Assembly (NCBI RefSeq): GCF_001713395.1
Contig: NZ_CP016450.1
Coordinates: 1,736,001 to 1,800,000, forward strand
Reading direction: 5' to 3'
Origin: Sinorhizobium sp. RAC02
Lineage (GTDB): Bacteria; Pseudomonadota; Alphaproteobacteria; Rhizobiales; Rhizobiaceae
DNA: 64,000 bases
Positions 34,068-39,867 of this stretch are shown here, piece by piece; positions within the stretch are counted from its first letter, which is position 1, and the number at the start of each line of letters is the position of its first letter. The translations under genes and the position numbers were made by a program. A model generated the notes under the pieces. It had not been told where the DNA came from. It saw nothing but the letters and a program-made list of their open reading frames with translations, and made no database searches.

Positions 34068-34955
34068 CTACTCCAGATTCTGGACCTGTTCCCTGAACTG
34101 GTCGATGACGACCTTCAGCTCGATACCTGCTGCCGTTACAGCAGCAGCGTTCGACTTGGAACAGATCGTATTCGATTCCCGGTTAAATTCCTGTGCGAGA
34201 AAATCGAGCTTGCGGCCGATCGGCCCGCCCTCGGCGATGAGTTCGCGTGCGGCAGCGACATGCGCCTTCAGCCGGTCGACCTCCTCGCGCAGGTCCGCCT
34301 TGGTGGCAAGCAGCGCCGCCTCCTGGTGCAACCGGTCACGATCGAGCGCCGTCGTGCCCTGCATGAGCACGGCCACCTGCGCGGAAAGCCGTTCGGCAAT
34401 CGCCGATACGCTGCGCGAAGGATCGGCCTCGACGGTCTGCGTCAGCGCCTCGATGCGCGCGACCTGCCCCAGCAGCACCTCGGCGAGCGCCGCGCCCTCC
34501 TTGCCGCGCATGTCGGCAAGACAGCGGATCGCTTCGGCAAGGCCTGCCTTGATATCCTTGTCACGCGTGGCCCGCTCCGCTTCGCTTTCCTCCGCCTCGC
34601 GGAAATCGACGATTCCGCGAACGGCGAGCAGCGTATCGAGCTTCAGCGGCGCCGGATCCACGATACCGGTGAGCTGATCGCGCAATGCCAGCACGGCGGC
34701 AAGCGCGCCCTGGTTCACCACGGCCTCGACCTGCGCTTCGCTGACGCTCGTCGCAAGGCCGATCTGCAGGTTACCGCGTGAAAAGGCTTCGCCGGCAAGC
34801 CGGCGCACATCGGCCTCCAGCGCTTCGAGGCCGGGGGGAAGGCGAAGCCGAAGATCGAGGCCCTTGCCATTGACCGAGCGCAGCTCCCACACCCAGCGGC
34901 TGCGTCCGCTCGTTCCCTCGACCCGTGCGAAGCCGGTCATCGATTGTAATGTCAT
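34068..34955 (-). CDS. YicC family protein (putative endoribonuclease)
   Basis: 295-residue protein of the YicC/YloC family, reported as endoribonucleases in E. coli. Seen: LQSMTGFARVEGTSGRSRW at the start (family hallmark), RSVNGKGLDLRLRLPPGLE, and the C-terminal GRKLDFLAQEFNRESNTICSK, all well conserved. GGAGGATGAC before the ATG supports the start chosen. It precedes gmk, as is usual in proteobacteria. Upstream lies the dltC-like gene, about 180 bases away. Confidence 0.93.
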   Translation of the reverse strand: MTLQSMTGFARVEGTSGRSRWVWELRSVNGKGLDLRLRLPPGLEALEADVRRLAGEAFSRGNLQIGLATSVSEAQVEAVVNQGALAAVLALRDQLTGIVDPAPLKLDTLLAVRGIVDFREAEESEAERATRDKDIKAGLAEAIRCLADMRGKEGAALAEVLLGQVARIEALTQTVEADPSRSVSAIAERLSAQVAVLMQGTTALDRDRLHQEAALLATKADLREEVDRLKAHVAAARELIAEGGPIGRKLDFLAQEFNRESNTICSKSNAAAVTAAGIELKVVIDQFREQVQNLE

Positions 34956-35132
34956 GTCATCCTCCAGTCGGCGCCCCACCGCGGTATGAATCAAATCGGA
35001 AATGGGTCAGCCGGAACGCGCGATGCGCGAATTCATCCCCCAAAGTGAAGCACTTTCGCGGGGTTGGAAACGGCAAGAACCGACGGAACGACAGCGATCC
35101 ACATCAAAGCGACGCTGCCAGCCGCCGCGGCG

Positions 35133-35384
35133 TCAATTGCGGGCGCGGGAAATGAGATCGGTGATGTCGGTGATCGTGTCGAGGGCGGAGACGTCGAAAT
35201 CGGCGCTGGCGAGATTCAGCTCGAAATCCTGTTCCAGCAGCATGATCATTTCGGTCGCCGCCAGCGAATCCAGCCGTCCGGTGATGAACAGGGATTCGTC
35301 ATCGCGCACAGGATCGCGGTCGCCGCGGGCTGCGAGCAGGCCGGTGACGGCGGTGCGAAGTCGTTCCACGGTGGAAAGGCTCAT
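35133..35384 (-). CDS. DltC-like acyl/aminoacyl carrier protein
   Basis: 83-residue carrier protein with a phosphopantetheine attachment Ser40 in GRLDSLAATEMIMLLEQ. The residue before the Ser is Asp, as expected, and the helix after it is well formed. It differs from the fatty-acid ACP encoded at 41.5 kb ([11 protein letters not shown]). Start MSLSTVERLR lies one base after the stop of the MBOAT gene. Third gene of an A-B-C cassette: adenylating enzyme, MBOAT acyltransferase, carrier, the same order as dltA-dltB-dltC. Confidence 0.85.
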   Translation of the reverse strand: MSLSTVERLRTAVTGLLAARGDRDPVRDDESLFITGRLDSLAATEMIMLLEQDFELNLASADFDVSALDTITDITDLISRARN

Positions 35385-35385
35385 G

Positions 35386-36870
35386 TCAGGCTCCGAACAG
35401 GCTGAAAAGGAAGGCGAAGCGTTCGCCGATGGTGAACGCGTCGATGGGTTCGTTGAAGATGGTGAGCAGGCAGAAGAACAGGCCGACCTGAAGACGGGGC
35501 AGGACATCGTAGCGCAGAAATCCGTCTTCCGGCTTCGGCCGCCGGTTGCGAAGCTGTGACACGATCAGCCCGCCGGCCAGCACGACGCAATAGAGAAGAT
35601 AGCTTTCGAAGGCCCGCAGGCCCGGCAGAACCCCGTTCACCGCGAGGATGTCGATGCGGCCCATGAAATGGAAAAGCCAGTTGCCGACGCACGCCGCGCA
35701 GAAGGTGGCGAAAGCGACACGCAGGCGCGGGTGTTTCTTGAACCAGCGCAGGAAGGCCGGATAGAAGAAGAAATCGACCAGCAGTTCCTTGAAATAGAAA
35801 TAGTAGCGGTTCCAGAACTCCGCCAGGCTGCGCGCGGCAAGCGGGCGTACCGTATTGCGGGGAATGCCGTAGCCGGCGACGCGGATGAGCGCGACGACGA
35901 TATGGCCCCAGGCTGCAAGGTGCAGGATATCGAGGAGATAGTGCACCACGAGCGAGGCCCAGGATAGGGCGGCCGGAAGCGGCGCGCCCTTGGCGGCGGC
36001 GGCCATGGCATCGGCCAGGACCGGCACGCCGGCTTCCGTGTTCAGAACGTTGCGGGCCGTGACATCGGCGCCGGCCAGCAACGCGCCCCAGACGATAAGC
36101 TTCAGCCCCTTGAGGCGGGTGACGGCGAGTGCGGTCTCGTCCTTCGCCTCGAATTTCGCGAGGAAACCGGCACCCTTGCCGATCGGCAGCGTCGGTCCCT
36201 CCCAGAACGGCCGGAAGAAGGCGACGCGCGGAAGCGGATTGGTGGTCTGCTTCACCTTCTGGTCGGCCAGCGCATAGGCGATGCACCAGAAGCCGGAGGC
36301 GAGCGCCGCAAGGAACAGCCAGACCTCCGCGGCGAATTTCACGGGCAGAAGACCGGAGAGCGGCACCGCCAGGACAGCGAAGAAGATAAGCATCATCGTC
36401 AGGACGGGATGGCGGCCCGGCGCCGTCGTGCGAAAGGTCGATTGCAGGCGCAGCGCCGCTATGCCGAAGGCGAGGAAGGCAATGCCTGCGCCGGCAATCA
36501 GGATGCGCTGGTCGATGGTGCCGACCAGATCCATCTCCCGGCGCAGGAAATCGCTGAGCTCCTCCGAGCGCGTCGGCCGCAGCATGATGAAAAACAGCGT
36601 CGTGAGACCGATGACCAGCGTGCGCCGGGCCGGAAAGGCAGCGCAGCCGGCAAGGCCGAGAGCGACGATCAGCATGCTGCCGGGGCCAGGCCGCGTGGTG
36701 CAGAAGACGAGGAAGACCGCGACATGCAGCAGCACGATGCCCTTCATGCTTGTCGCGAAGGCGATGGCCGCGGGCGCCTTGTCCATGCCGAGCCAGGCGG
36801 CACGCAGCGCCAGCGCCAGCCCGAGAAGACCGGGGCGGACCTGCCTCTGCGACGACGCGGTCTCGCTCAT
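35386..36870 (-). CDS. DltB-like MBOAT family acyltransferase
   Basis: 494-residue polytopic inner-membrane protein with about ten hydrophobic helices. Seen: EFWNRYYFYFKELLVDFFFYP from residue 351, the MBOAT pattern (compare DFWRRW...DYIYIP of DltB), and a candidate catalytic His401 within VGNWLFHFMGR, where DltB has GxWHG. MBOAT enzymes carry an activated acyl or aminoacyl group across or within the membrane to a hydroxyl of a polymer or lipid. The start overlaps the adenylating enzyme stop by ATGA. The pattern deviates enough that the acceptor cannot be assumed. Confidence 0.8.
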   Translation of the reverse strand: MSETASSQRQVRPGLLGLALALRAAWLGMDKAPAAIAFATSMKGIVLLHVAVFLVFCTTRPGPGSMLIVALGLAGCAAFPARRTLVIGLTTLFFIMLRPTRSEELSDFLRREMDLVGTIDQRILIAGAGIAFLAFGIAALRLQSTFRTTAPGRHPVLTMMLIFFAVLAVPLSGLLPVKFAAEVWLFLAALASGFWCIAYALADQKVKQTTNPLPRVAFFRPFWEGPTLPIGKGAGFLAKFEAKDETALAVTRLKGLKLIVWGALLAGADVTARNVLNTEAGVPVLADAMAAAAKGAPLPAALSWASLVVHYLLDILHLAAWGHIVVALIRVAGYGIPRNTVRPLAARSLAEFWNRYYFYFKELLVDFFFYPAFLRWFKKHPRLRVAFATFCAACVGNWLFHFMGRIDILAVNGVLPGLRAFESYLLYCVVLAGGLIVSQLRNRRPKPEDGFLRYDVLPRLQVGLFFCLLTIFNEPIDAFTIGERFAFLFSLFGA

Positions 36871-38450
36871 GCCGCGTCCTCCCGCGTGGCAAAGTGGCCT
36901 GCGTCGAGGTCGGCGAAGAGTGACTTGCGGTCGACCTTGCCATTGCTGTTCAGCGGCAGGGTCTCGATGAGGTGGATTGCGGAGGGAACCATGTAGGCCG
37001 GGAGTTTCGCCCGCAGGGCGTCACGGATCGCAGGCCCTTCCATCGCCGCGCCGACGGCGAAGCCGACGATGCCGCTGGCCGAGCCGGCGCTCGCGGGCCA
37101 GGCGATGGCGGCGACGTGATCCGACCCGGAGGCGGTGCGCAGATGCATTTCCACCTCCTCCAGCTCGACACGGTTGCCCATGACCTTCACCTGATTGTCG
37201 ATGCGGCCGAGATGGTGGAACGTGCCGTCCTCTGCCTCCATGCCGAGATCGCCGGTCAGATACCAGCGTTCGCCACCGATGAGTGGAAAGCGCGCTGCGG
37301 TCAGCTCTTCCTGCCCGAAATAACCGTGCGCAAGCTGCTTGCCGGAGAGCGCGATTTCCCCGGCAGCGCCTGTCGCGACCGGCTTCAACTCCGCGTCCAG
37401 GATCGCGGCCCGCATGCCGGGATAGGCGTAGCCGATCGCCACGATCTCGCGTGCGGGCGTCACGACGACGGGTTCGACGACCGGCTGGCGCAGGCAGGCG
37501 ATGGTGGCTTCGGTCGGACCATAGATGTTCTCGACGATGCTGTTGGGTGCGGCCTCCGCCCAGGCGCGCGCAGCGCCCACCGGCAGCGGCTCGCCGCAGA
37601 ACATCGAGATGCGCAGGCTCGTCAGCGAGGCCGGCTGGAGCGTCCGGTTCTGCCGCATCATCGCGATGACCGACGGCACGGAAAGCCAGGTGGTGATCTG
37701 CCGATCGCGGATGAAGCGCGCCGGTGCCACCATCTGGAGCGGCGTCATCACATGCAGCGAGGCGCCTGCCTGCCAGGCGAGGAACATGTTGTGCACCGAG
37801 AGGTCGAAGGTGATGTCGCAGGTTTCCGCCGCACGATCCCCCGGCGTGAAGCCGAACCAGGCCTGCATGACCGCGAGGTAGTGGTCGACGGCGCTCGACG
37901 GCACCATGACGCCCTTTGGAACGCCTGTCGTGCCGGAGGTGAACTCGATATAGGCAAGGTGGTCGTCGGAAATGTCCGCCGGCTCGGCCGGTCCACCATC
38001 CGGCAGGGCATCGAGGCGGAACACGGTTCGACCGTGGAGGGCAGCGGGCGGGCGGGCGTCCGCTGCAAGCAGGATCGTTGCCGGAAGATGGTCTTCGACG
38101 CCCGGGGTCAACATCGCCGCGCCGCGCGCATCCACCACCAGCGCATCGAGGTCAAGCGTGTCGAGAAGCTGGACGAGCCGCTCTTCCGGGAGTTTCAGAT
38201 TGAGCGGAACATAGGTGCCGCCGGACCAGGCCGTGCCCAGAATACCGGCGCAGGCCGCGAGGCTGCGGGAGGCCAGGATACCGACGCGGCCGGTGCGCCG
38301 GGCGGGCGCAAGGCAGCCAGCGATGCGACGGGACAGGGCCGCGAGCGCCTCATAGGATAGGTCCACGCCCGCCACGGAAAGCGCGAGCGCATCCGGGCGC
38401 GCATGGCTGTGCCGGAAGACGTGGCTGGCAATGTTCATCGCAGCAGGCAT
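36867..38450 (-). CDS. DltA-like amino-acid adenylating enzyme
   Basis: 527-residue ANL-family ligase that should activate an amino acid with ATP and load it on the adjacent carrier. Seen: EFTSGTTGVPKG at 169-180 (P-loop), DITFDLSVHNMF at 212-223, MFCGEPLPV at 283-291, ENIYGPTEATIACL at 307-320, WYLTGDLG at 396-403, RIDNQVKVMGNRVELEEVE at 416-434, and the final catalytic Lys in NSNGKVDRKS. FCGE and YGPTEATVA-type motifs are those of DltA. I recall that in DltA the FCGE cysteine helps select D-alanine; here it is Cys285. A start at residue 5 is also possible. Confidence 0.85.
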   Translation of the reverse strand: MPAAMNIASHVFRHSHARPDALALSVAGVDLSYEALAALSRRIAGCLAPARRTGRVGILASRSLAACAGILGTAWSGGTYVPLNLKLPEERLVQLLDTLDLDALVVDARGAAMLTPGVEDHLPATILLAADARPPAALHGRTVFRLDALPDGGPAEPADISDDHLAYIEFTSGTTGVPKGVMVPSSAVDHYLAVMQAWFGFTPGDRAAETCDITFDLSVHNMFLAWQAGASLHVMTPLQMVAPARFIRDRQITTWLSVPSVIAMMRQNRTLQPASLTSLRISMFCGEPLPVGAARAWAEAAPNSIVENIYGPTEATIACLRQPVVEPVVVTPAREIVAIGYAYPGMRAAILDAELKPVATGAAGEIALSGKQLAHGYFGQEELTAARFPLIGGERWYLTGDLGMEAEDGTFHHLGRIDNQVKVMGNRVELEEVEMHLRTASGSDHVAAIAWPASAGSASGIVGFAVGAAMEGPAIRDALRAKLPAYMVPSAIHLIETLPLNSNGKVDRKSLFADLDAGHFATREDAA

Positions 38451-38599
38451 CGGGTATTTCGAACCCCGTCGATTGATCGCATCCGCCGGTTGTAGGCCTT
38501 ATTTCTTTACATTCGCCTCCCAAAACACCCGAAATCCAGCCCTGTGCAGGGTCAGCTTCGCATCAGGCTTTCCAACTCTTTAACGCCGCTGAAAACGAA

Positions 38600-38628
38600 A
38601 CGGCCCCGGCGGTTTTCGCCAGGGCCGT
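38600..38628 (-). terminator. Intrinsic terminator downstream of mltG
   Basis: Read on the minus strand, a 12-bp stem with one G:T pair and a loop rich in A (38617-38628 with 38600-38611) is followed by TTTCGTTTTC. It lies about 60 bases after the mltG stop and separates the fab-mltG transcript from the dlt-like cassette, which therefore probably has its own promoter in 38451-38599. Confidence 0.75.
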
Positions 38629-38685
38629 CTGCCATGTTTTGCGATGCGTGGGGCTTGTAAGATCAGCCCACTGCCGGAGAGCCCG

Positions 38686-39867
38686 TTATTGCGAACCGGT
38701 GGCCCCCGCTGCTTTTGCAGCCTCGGCAGCCTTCTCCGCCTCCAGCTTGCGCCAGCGGCGGACGTTCTGGTTATGCTCGTCGAGCGTCTCGGCAAAGACG
38801 TGGCCGCCCGTGCCGTCAGCAACGAAGTAGAGATCGGTGGTGCGCGAAGGGTTTGCGACGGCTTCGAGTGCCGCGCGGCCCGGATTGGCGATCGGCGTCG
38901 GCGGCAGGCCCTTGATGACATAGGTGTTGAAGGGCGTCTGCTTTTCGAGGTCCGACTGGTAGATCGGCCGCTCGGCCGGTTTGCCGTCGCCACCAAAGAT
39001 GCCGTAGATGATCGTCGGGTCGGACTGCAGGCGCATGCCCTTGTCGAGGCGGTTCAGGAAGACCGAGGCGACACGCGAGCGCTCATCGGCCCTGCCCGTT
39101 TCCTTCTCGACGATCGAGGCCAGCGTGACGAATTCTTCACGGGTCGCGATCGGCAGGTCGTCGTCGCGGCGCTCCCAGATCTGGTCGATCAGCGCCTTCT
39201 GCGCATCCTGCATCTGATGCAGGATATCGGCGCGCTTGGTGCCACGCGAGAACTTGTAGGTATCAGGCATCAACGTACCCTCGACCGGCAGATCGGCCGG
39301 CAGGTCGCCTTCGAGAACCGGATCGTCCTTGAGGCGCTTGAAGATCTGCTTGACGGTCAGGCCTTCCGGCACGGAAACACTGTAGAGGATCGACTTGCCG
39401 GATTTCAGCAGCTCGACGATGTCGCGCATCGTGGCGCCGGACTTGATCTCGTATTCGCCGGCCTTCAGCGTCTGGCCATCGAGATAGACGCGAGACAGCA
39501 CGCGGAAGACGCGGCTGTCGGTGATGATGTTGTTGCGCTCGAGATTGGCGGCGATCTCATTGGTGCCGGCGCCGGCGCGCACGATGAAGTTCGTGTTGGC
39601 GGTCAGCGGCCCCTGCTCTTCGTAGCTCTTGACGCCGTAGTAGAAGATGCCGACGCCGATGATCGTTGCAAAGACGACCACCGTCATGACGAAATTCAGG
39701 AAGATGACGAGCTGGCTGCGTGCCTTGCGCGAGCGGCGGCGGCTCGGCGGCTGCGGCACCTGTTCCGGCCGGAGGGCCTCGTTGGCGGACTTGGGGATGA
39801 TGCGCGGCTGGCCGGATGTCTCACCGCGGCCAAACTGCGTCTCGCCGGAATCGTTCGTGTCGCTCAC
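38686..39867 (-). CDS. mltG: Endolytic peptidoglycan transglycosylase MltG
   Basis: Inner-membrane lytic transglycosylase that cuts nascent glycan strands. 393 residues. Seen: a polar, Pro/Arg-rich cytoplasmic N-terminus of about 50 residues, one membrane helix at 53-77, a LysM-like region, and the YceG domain with EEFVTLASIVEKETGRA near 244-260, catalytic Glu254. Downstream of fabF on the same strand, the usual rhizobial order. Confidence 0.95.
   Translation of the reverse strand: MSDTNDSGETQFGRGETSGQPRIIPKSANEALRPEQVPQPPSRRRSRKARSQLVIFLNFVMTVVVFATIIGVGIFYYGVKSYEEQGPLTANTNFIVRAGAGTNEIAANLERNNIITDSRVFRVLSRVYLDGQTLKAGEYEIKSGATMRDIVELLKSGKSILYSVSVPEGLTVKQIFKRLKDDPVLEGDLPADLPVEGTLMPDTYKFSRGTKRADILHQMQDAQKALIDQIWERRDDDLPIATREEFVTLASIVEKETGRADERSRVASVFLNRLDKGMRLQSDPTIIYGIFGGDGKPAERPIYQSDLEKQTPFNTYVIKGLPPTPIANPGRAALEAVANPSRTTDLYFVADGTGGHVFAETLDEHNQNVRRWRKLEAEKAAEAAKAAGATGSQ

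Follow-up and report, generated by a model that had tools for sequence, protein, structure and literature searches.

A rare ligase-MBOAT-carrier cassette in Shinella as a candidate for carrier-dependent aminoacyl delivery

What can a Gram-negative bacterium do with three genes that stand in the order of dltA, dltB and dltC? The question is raised by a 64,000-nucleotide stretch of contig NZ_CP016450.1 (assembly GCF_001713395.1, positions 1,736,001 to 1,800,000; hereafter the window), filed under Sinorhizobium sp. RAC02 and belonging to a Shinella genome. A cassette within it encodes an adenylating enzyme (the ligase), a protein with the membrane-bound O-acyltransferase (MBOAT) fold and a small carrier protein (Table 1). 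An initial annotation, made from the letters of the DNA, described three minus-strand genes with ATGA and one-base junctions, took the ligase to be DltA-like, noted no adjacent DltD and suggested that the mechanism may differ from that of Dlt. The coordinates confirm this arrangement: ligase, MBOAT and carrier run head to tail on the minus strand from 38450 to 35133, with one ATGA overlap and one one-base gap, and every motif that had been quoted is present. The evidence likewise supports a cassette of amino-acid ligase, MBOAT and carrier in a Gram-negative. We favor, at a probability of roughly 0.5, carrier-dependent aminoacyl delivery of the Alm/Dlt type, in which glycine would travel via the carrier and the MBOAT to a membrane acceptor.

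Previous work has established that PDB entry 4OXI is AlmE solved with Gly-AMP, that D247 and K452 of AlmE hold the amine and carbonyl, and that L248 and C316, probed by mutagenesis, lie beside the alpha carbon (PMC11253843). Here, we find that 4oxi is the top single-domain solved chain for the whole ligase (249.8 bits, versus 194.8 for the top DltA, 3e7w) and for the pocket region alone (127 versus 75.3 bits), which places the ligase nearer to AlmE than to DltA. When the nine pocket positions are aligned, AlmE has D L H L F C L I A where the window ligase has D L H L M C I I A, 7/9 identical, as expected of an AlmE-type glycine pocket; the Rhizobium relatives L002-L004 agree with AlmE at 8/9. 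As controls, four other chains printed for the pocket region agree with AlmE at 2 or 3 of nine positions (read by eye), and 10 of the 11 other AMP-binding proteins of the genome could be aligned, with 0 to 2 matches. The latter control is soft, because those proteins resemble distant acyl-CoA-type enzymes and some positions are gapped. DltA has the Asp, Leu and Cys in common, with Met where AlmE and the window ligase have His (PMC8972799; position match inferred). On the general amino-acid adenylation model, the ligase scores 309.5 bits against a cut-off of 317.4. Because its pocket is nearly that of AlmE, glycine is the better guess, and we infer from the alignment, with somewhat more than even confidence, that glycine is the substrate.

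The second protein has the MBOAT fold, with DltB first in the structural ranking and the lipid-modifying folds MBOAT7, LPCAT3 and DGAT1 after it. A candidate catalytic histidine, His401, is present in at least 90% of 35 MBOATs of this subfamily. PF03062 had no match in the genome (the control was positive in 3 genomes), and Pfam returned no MBOAT model for any of the 35 members, only DUF6458, weakly, in 2; the subfamily lies outside the coverage of any Pfam model. The third protein is a separate carrier (27.5 bits on PF00550, cut-off 20.8) with Ser40 in place; it scores 29.4 of 68 bits on PRK05087 and, weakly, 30 of 130 bits on an ornithine-lipid carrier model. PF01648, a transferase family, has one match in the genome.

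From these parts, the following mechanism can be proposed. The ligase would convert glycine and ATP to glycyl-AMP, and the glycyl group would then be bound in thioester linkage to the carrier's phosphopantetheine arm, the carrier itself being primed by the genome's one PF01648 transferase. At the inner membrane, the glycyl group would pass from the carrier to the MBOAT and from there straight onto a hydroxyl of an acceptor residing in the membrane; neither an SGNH partner (DltD) nor a tyrosine acyl shuttle, be it DltX or a C-terminal FxYxxF, would take part. The MBOAT probably performs acyl transfer; a lipid acceptor is about an even bet, and lipid A in particular seems unlikely. One concrete candidate would be rhizobial lipid A, at free 3-OH acyl chains or at the (omega-1)-OH of its very-long-chain fatty acid (VLCFA). 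In Agrobacterium lipid A, 27-hydroxyoctacosanoate is acylated with 3-hydroxybutyrate (PMC11901934), and in Oligotropha a related chain carries malate (PMC7663294). The rarity of the cassette means that it is not a general enzyme for VLCFA tertiary acyl groups, and the lipid A hydroxyls are a proposal for where to look. It is also possible, if rather unlikely, that a phospholipid or an ornithine lipid serves as acceptor, giving a glycyl-lipid formed without tRNA. The MBOAT7, LPCAT3 and DGAT1 matches and the weak score on the ornithine-lipid carrier model point that way; the known aminoacyl phospholipids described in a review, however, are made with tRNA.

How far, then, does the cassette resemble Dlt? 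Comparison with the dlt families, which the initial annotation had proposed, goes against membership: the ligase scores 245.8 bits on the DltA equivalog TIGR01734 (cut-off 559.85), the carrier 21.3 bits on the DltC equivalog TIGR01688 (cut-off 52.35), and the MBOAT fails the DltB equivalog TIGR04091. A dlt-type locus is known in a Gram-negative, the Bordetella dra locus, which resembles a full dltABCD set. The genome search for DltD, likewise proposed earlier and the one search made for an SGNH family across the genome, gave no PF04914 match, with the control positive in B. subtilis and L. lactis. Next to the MBOAT there is no SGNH partner, the flanks being mltG and yicC, and at the other loci, where neighbors were partly put to Pfam, no SGNH match appeared among those. 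FxYxxF is absent from the final 25 residues of all 35 MBOATs, and no frame between 34.0 and 40.0 kb of the window ends in it, the scan for a DltX-like microprotein not extending to the rest of the genome. Since the acyl-shuttle motif is missing as well as DltD, the mechanism should differ from that of Dlt, as had been suggested. A plain Dlt operon is rejected in view of the hidden Markov model cut-offs, the absent DltD and the absent tail shuttle. A reduced version, in which D-Ala is loaded and an SGNH enzyme from elsewhere in the genome assists the MBOAT in modifying an envelope glycan, would account for the dlt gene order, the DltB-like fold and the Asp, Leu and Cys that the D-Ala pocket also has, and D-Ala activation is possible for AlmE-type pockets (PMC12930378, PMC11253843). 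We nevertheless regard it as improbable, given the lack of PF04914 and of FxYxxF at tails and nearby frame ends, the His in place of the Met of DltA, the scores far below the dlt cut-offs and the better match to AlmE.

The cassette can also be compared with known systems. Like AlmEFG, which puts glycine on lipid A in Vibrio cholerae, it combines seven of the nine AlmE pocket residues and a separate small carrier with a Gram-negative host. AlmG, however, is an LPLAT/LpxL-type enzyme, whereas the transferase of this unit has the MBOAT fold; the genome was not searched for an AlmG-like gene elsewhere. DltABCD with DltX, which D-alanylates teichoic acids, differs in its DltD, its FxYxxF shuttle and its pocket, AlmE-like here. 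PatA/PatB-type systems likewise place an MBOAT in a Gram-negative, but MBOAT-SGNH enzymes use acyl-CoA and a hexapeptide on the MBOAT C-terminus (PMC12148441), in contrast to the carrier and the missing tail hexapeptide of the cassette. With an AlmE-like front end, a DltB-fold back end and neither SGNH protein nor shuttle found, the cassette is a variant of the Alm/Dlt kind. We found no published description of it among the open-licence papers listed, which does not establish that there is none.

The three genes form a real, ordered and rare unit. By BLAST, all three are present in 13/13 loci collected from named genomes with the MBOAT as query and in 16/20 further MBOAT loci; with L107 and L108, also complete, this makes 31 of 35 distinct loci (L111, the same contig as L012, was left out of the count). 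The usual order is ligase-MBOAT-carrier, from which L007 and L061 deviate. Among the exceptions, L053 has MBOAT and carrier, with no ligase found in the 18.5 kb examined, and in L052, L054 and L058 the MBOAT adjoins a GNAT gene, called PF13480 by Pfam in L052 and L058 and by BLAST in L054. In these three (L052:660-3281, L054:7525-10192, L058:8247-10966) the MBOAT directly follows the PF13480-type gene, whose frame is split into two open reading frames in L054; their genomes (G968, G032, G1023) contain a ligase-MBOAT pair at another place as well. The distances among ligases and those among MBOATs correlate across 32 loci (r 0.845) and across the 24 Rhizobiales loci outside Bradyrhizobium (r 0.85), with 0/999 permutations as high in either case. 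Shared ancestry yields such values too, so that joint inheritance is supported and contact is not.

The distribution is sparse. MBOAT matches occur in 2 of 21 Shinella genomes, in 22 of 394 family genomes from 14 of 109 genera (E up to 1e-20) and in 3 of 397 genomes drawn evenly from the order, where other members give weak partial matches (E 1e-9 to 1e-3). A profile search of the class (E up to 1e-30) found 1 of 385 genomes, that of the window itself. Further members come from Bradyrhizobium and from metagenome-assembled genomes of a Rhodopila and two acidobacteria; plasmid records gave no MBOAT match. In 19 of the 21 Shinella genomes, the mltG-yicC gap spans 175 to 392 bp (tblastn ends) with no cassette gene between, and in L005 (Rhizobium alarense) the cassette occupies the same site as in the window. 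Either the cassette was inserted as an accessory element, or it is older and has frequently been lost.

Relatives of the cassette show that its parts can be exchanged. A close ligase is found in 28 family genomes, 20 of them among the 22 with the MBOAT and 8 outside. In seven of these eight (L100-L106), ligase and carrier stand beside a GNAT-like protein of 282 to 334 residues, and a plasmid record from Pseudochrobactrum (L048:8995-11729) carries a copy identical to that of L104. These loci represent a different kind of aminoacyl transferase unit, present both in Rhizobiaceae genomes and on a Pseudochrobactrum plasmid, under a GNAT label that is tentative because the model is poor (pLDDT 66.6) and the fold matches weak. 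The top matches are mostly GNATs (E 1e-3 to 3e-2, none at or below 0.001), which together with the predicted order of secondary structures suggests a GNAT; Pfam and NCBIfam (the latter on one member) and a PDB sequence search gave no match. The GNAT-partnered ligases form one group (95/97 support) nested among the MBOAT-partnered ones, for which a single partner exchange suffices, and the presence of the GNAT-like protein in the place of the MBOAT implies that the carrier, once loaded, can be used for other chemistry as well.

Additions are seen as well. A methyltransferase gene adjoins the cassette in 4 of 5 distinct Bradyrhizobium loci and in one acidobacterial locus; L012 is the Bradyrhizobium locus without the gene of its four relatives. 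In L009, the methyltransferase lies inside an adenylation C-subdomain that has no adenylation core with it, the layout that nonribosomal peptide synthetases use for N-methylation. Such an insertion fits an aminoacyl thioester. The key pocket position is Cys in 35, Gly in 7 and Ala in 2 of 44 ligases, and with such variation among the pockets, glycine is not what every cassette delivers. Overall, the family gives the impression of a delivery platform in which both the amino acid and the transferase can be exchanged. More tentatively, and at somewhat less than even odds, AlmE-type ligase, carrier and MBOAT may constitute a third, modular route for bacterial envelope aminoacylation, carrying glycine straight to a membrane lipid with neither SGNH protein nor tyrosine shuttle, in which the transferase (MBOAT for GNAT-like protein) and the amino acid have been swapped independently; relatives would then transfer other amino acids, perhaps N-methylated.

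Several observations weigh against glycine delivery to a membrane acceptor. AlmE itself misactivates D-Ala, which it does not pass to the carrier (PMC12930378, PMC11253843), so that a near-identical pocket may leave D-Ala possible, and the pocket argument is an alignment rather than a model with substrate. Pockets depart from the AlmE pattern in Bradyrhizobium (D N F F M G C C I), in L009 (D V H G I A L I F) and in L049 (D V Q A F G Q V T), though the last belongs to the tree group of the window ligase. His401 is not strictly invariant, being Thr in P0092. An internal FxYxxF near residue 368 (FFYPAF) occurs in 29 of the 35 MBOATs; we discount it because it lies away from the tail and is unmatched in the other six, some of which carry Phe for Tyr. 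The VLCFA substituents on record are 3-hydroxybutyrate and malate, not amino acids, and we found no report of glycine on rhizobial lipid A in the literature looked at. No acceptor gene linked to the cassette was found, and the flanks differ between genera. The L099 ligase, 62% identical to that of the window, has neither an MBOAT nor a GNAT-like gene beside it; at L099:7000-9560, it is convergent to frames resembling, by eye, a hexapeptide-repeat acetyltransferase and another carrier. Lastly, replacement of the MBOAT by the GNAT-like protein in seven relatives could mean a soluble or amine acceptor. This replacement, the differing pockets and the added methyltransferase would suit a cassette that makes a small aminoacylated metabolite, or modifies an acceptor that is soluble or an amine, with the MBOAT merely anchoring the reaction at the membrane. 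We consider that doubtful, since 31 of 35 units have the MBOAT as a conserved polytopic protein and no recurrent condensation, export or further tailoring gene stands beside the Rhizobiaceae units among the neighbors examined. A ligase for a fatty or other non-amino acid, within an ordinary acylation system, would suit the AMP-binding family in general, but is very improbable in view of Asp216, the AlmE-like pocket and top matches that are amino-acid adenylating enzymes.

Table 1. Features of the cassette, its flanks and the methyltransferase found beside related cassettes
Feature	Coordinates	Strand	Details
Ligase (adenylating enzyme)	36867..38450	-	527 aa; pocket D216 L217 H220 L256 M283 C285 I309 I317 A318, Lys505
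MBOAT-fold membrane protein	35386..36870	-	494 aa; EFWNRYY stretch and His401
Carrier protein	35133..35384	-	83 aa; Ser40 is the phosphopantetheine site
Flank mltG	38686..39867	-	upstream of cassette
Flank yicC	34068..34994	-	downstream of cassette
Methyltransferase beside cassette	L008:6793-8070, L009:11702-13297, also L010, L011, L013		a methyltransferase by Pfam in both L008 and L009

The cassette sits between mltG and yicC-gmk, with lptG, an LptD-like gene (below its cut-off), pdxA and ksgA on one side and fabF, acpP, fabG and fabD on the other. A 91% identical MBOAT lies at the same contig coordinates in a named S. kummerowiae record and in the same-genus genome G007. Scanning 34900-38800 gave no promoter-like site and 3 terminator-like sites, versus 2.5 expected. 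No conserved neighbor hints at the acceptor: the widest extra cluster covers 6 loci, five of them Bradyrhizobium, and its representative is an HU-like DNA-binding protein by Pfam. Two-component genes near L003, L066 and L068 were rejected as a shared neighbor, being of different families. Divergent genes just upstream of the cassette at L066:3210-6448 encode a histidine kinase and a sigma-54 response regulator, and L067 has related gene clusters at the same place. A block of six genes that includes a second, distantly related AMP-binding enzyme a few kb away from the cassette is common to L066:10690-16727 and L067:454-6516. Directly after the carrier, L063:10333-11415 and L064:10076-11140 encode a protein of about 355-360 aa without a Pfam match.

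In the MBOAT acylation pathways elucidated to date, the MBOAT is backed by an SGNH protein and a tyrosine shuttle (PMC12148441). A cassette seemingly without either would show whether a bacterial MBOAT can finish aminoacyl transfer alone, and would link the lipid A glycine chemistry of Vibrio to the DltB fold. For the Rhizobiaceae, it is a testable candidate for envelope aminoacylation in a family where the enzymes of lipid A tertiary acylation are unexplored, as the authors of the Oligotropha study state for all rhizobial lipid A (PMC7663294).

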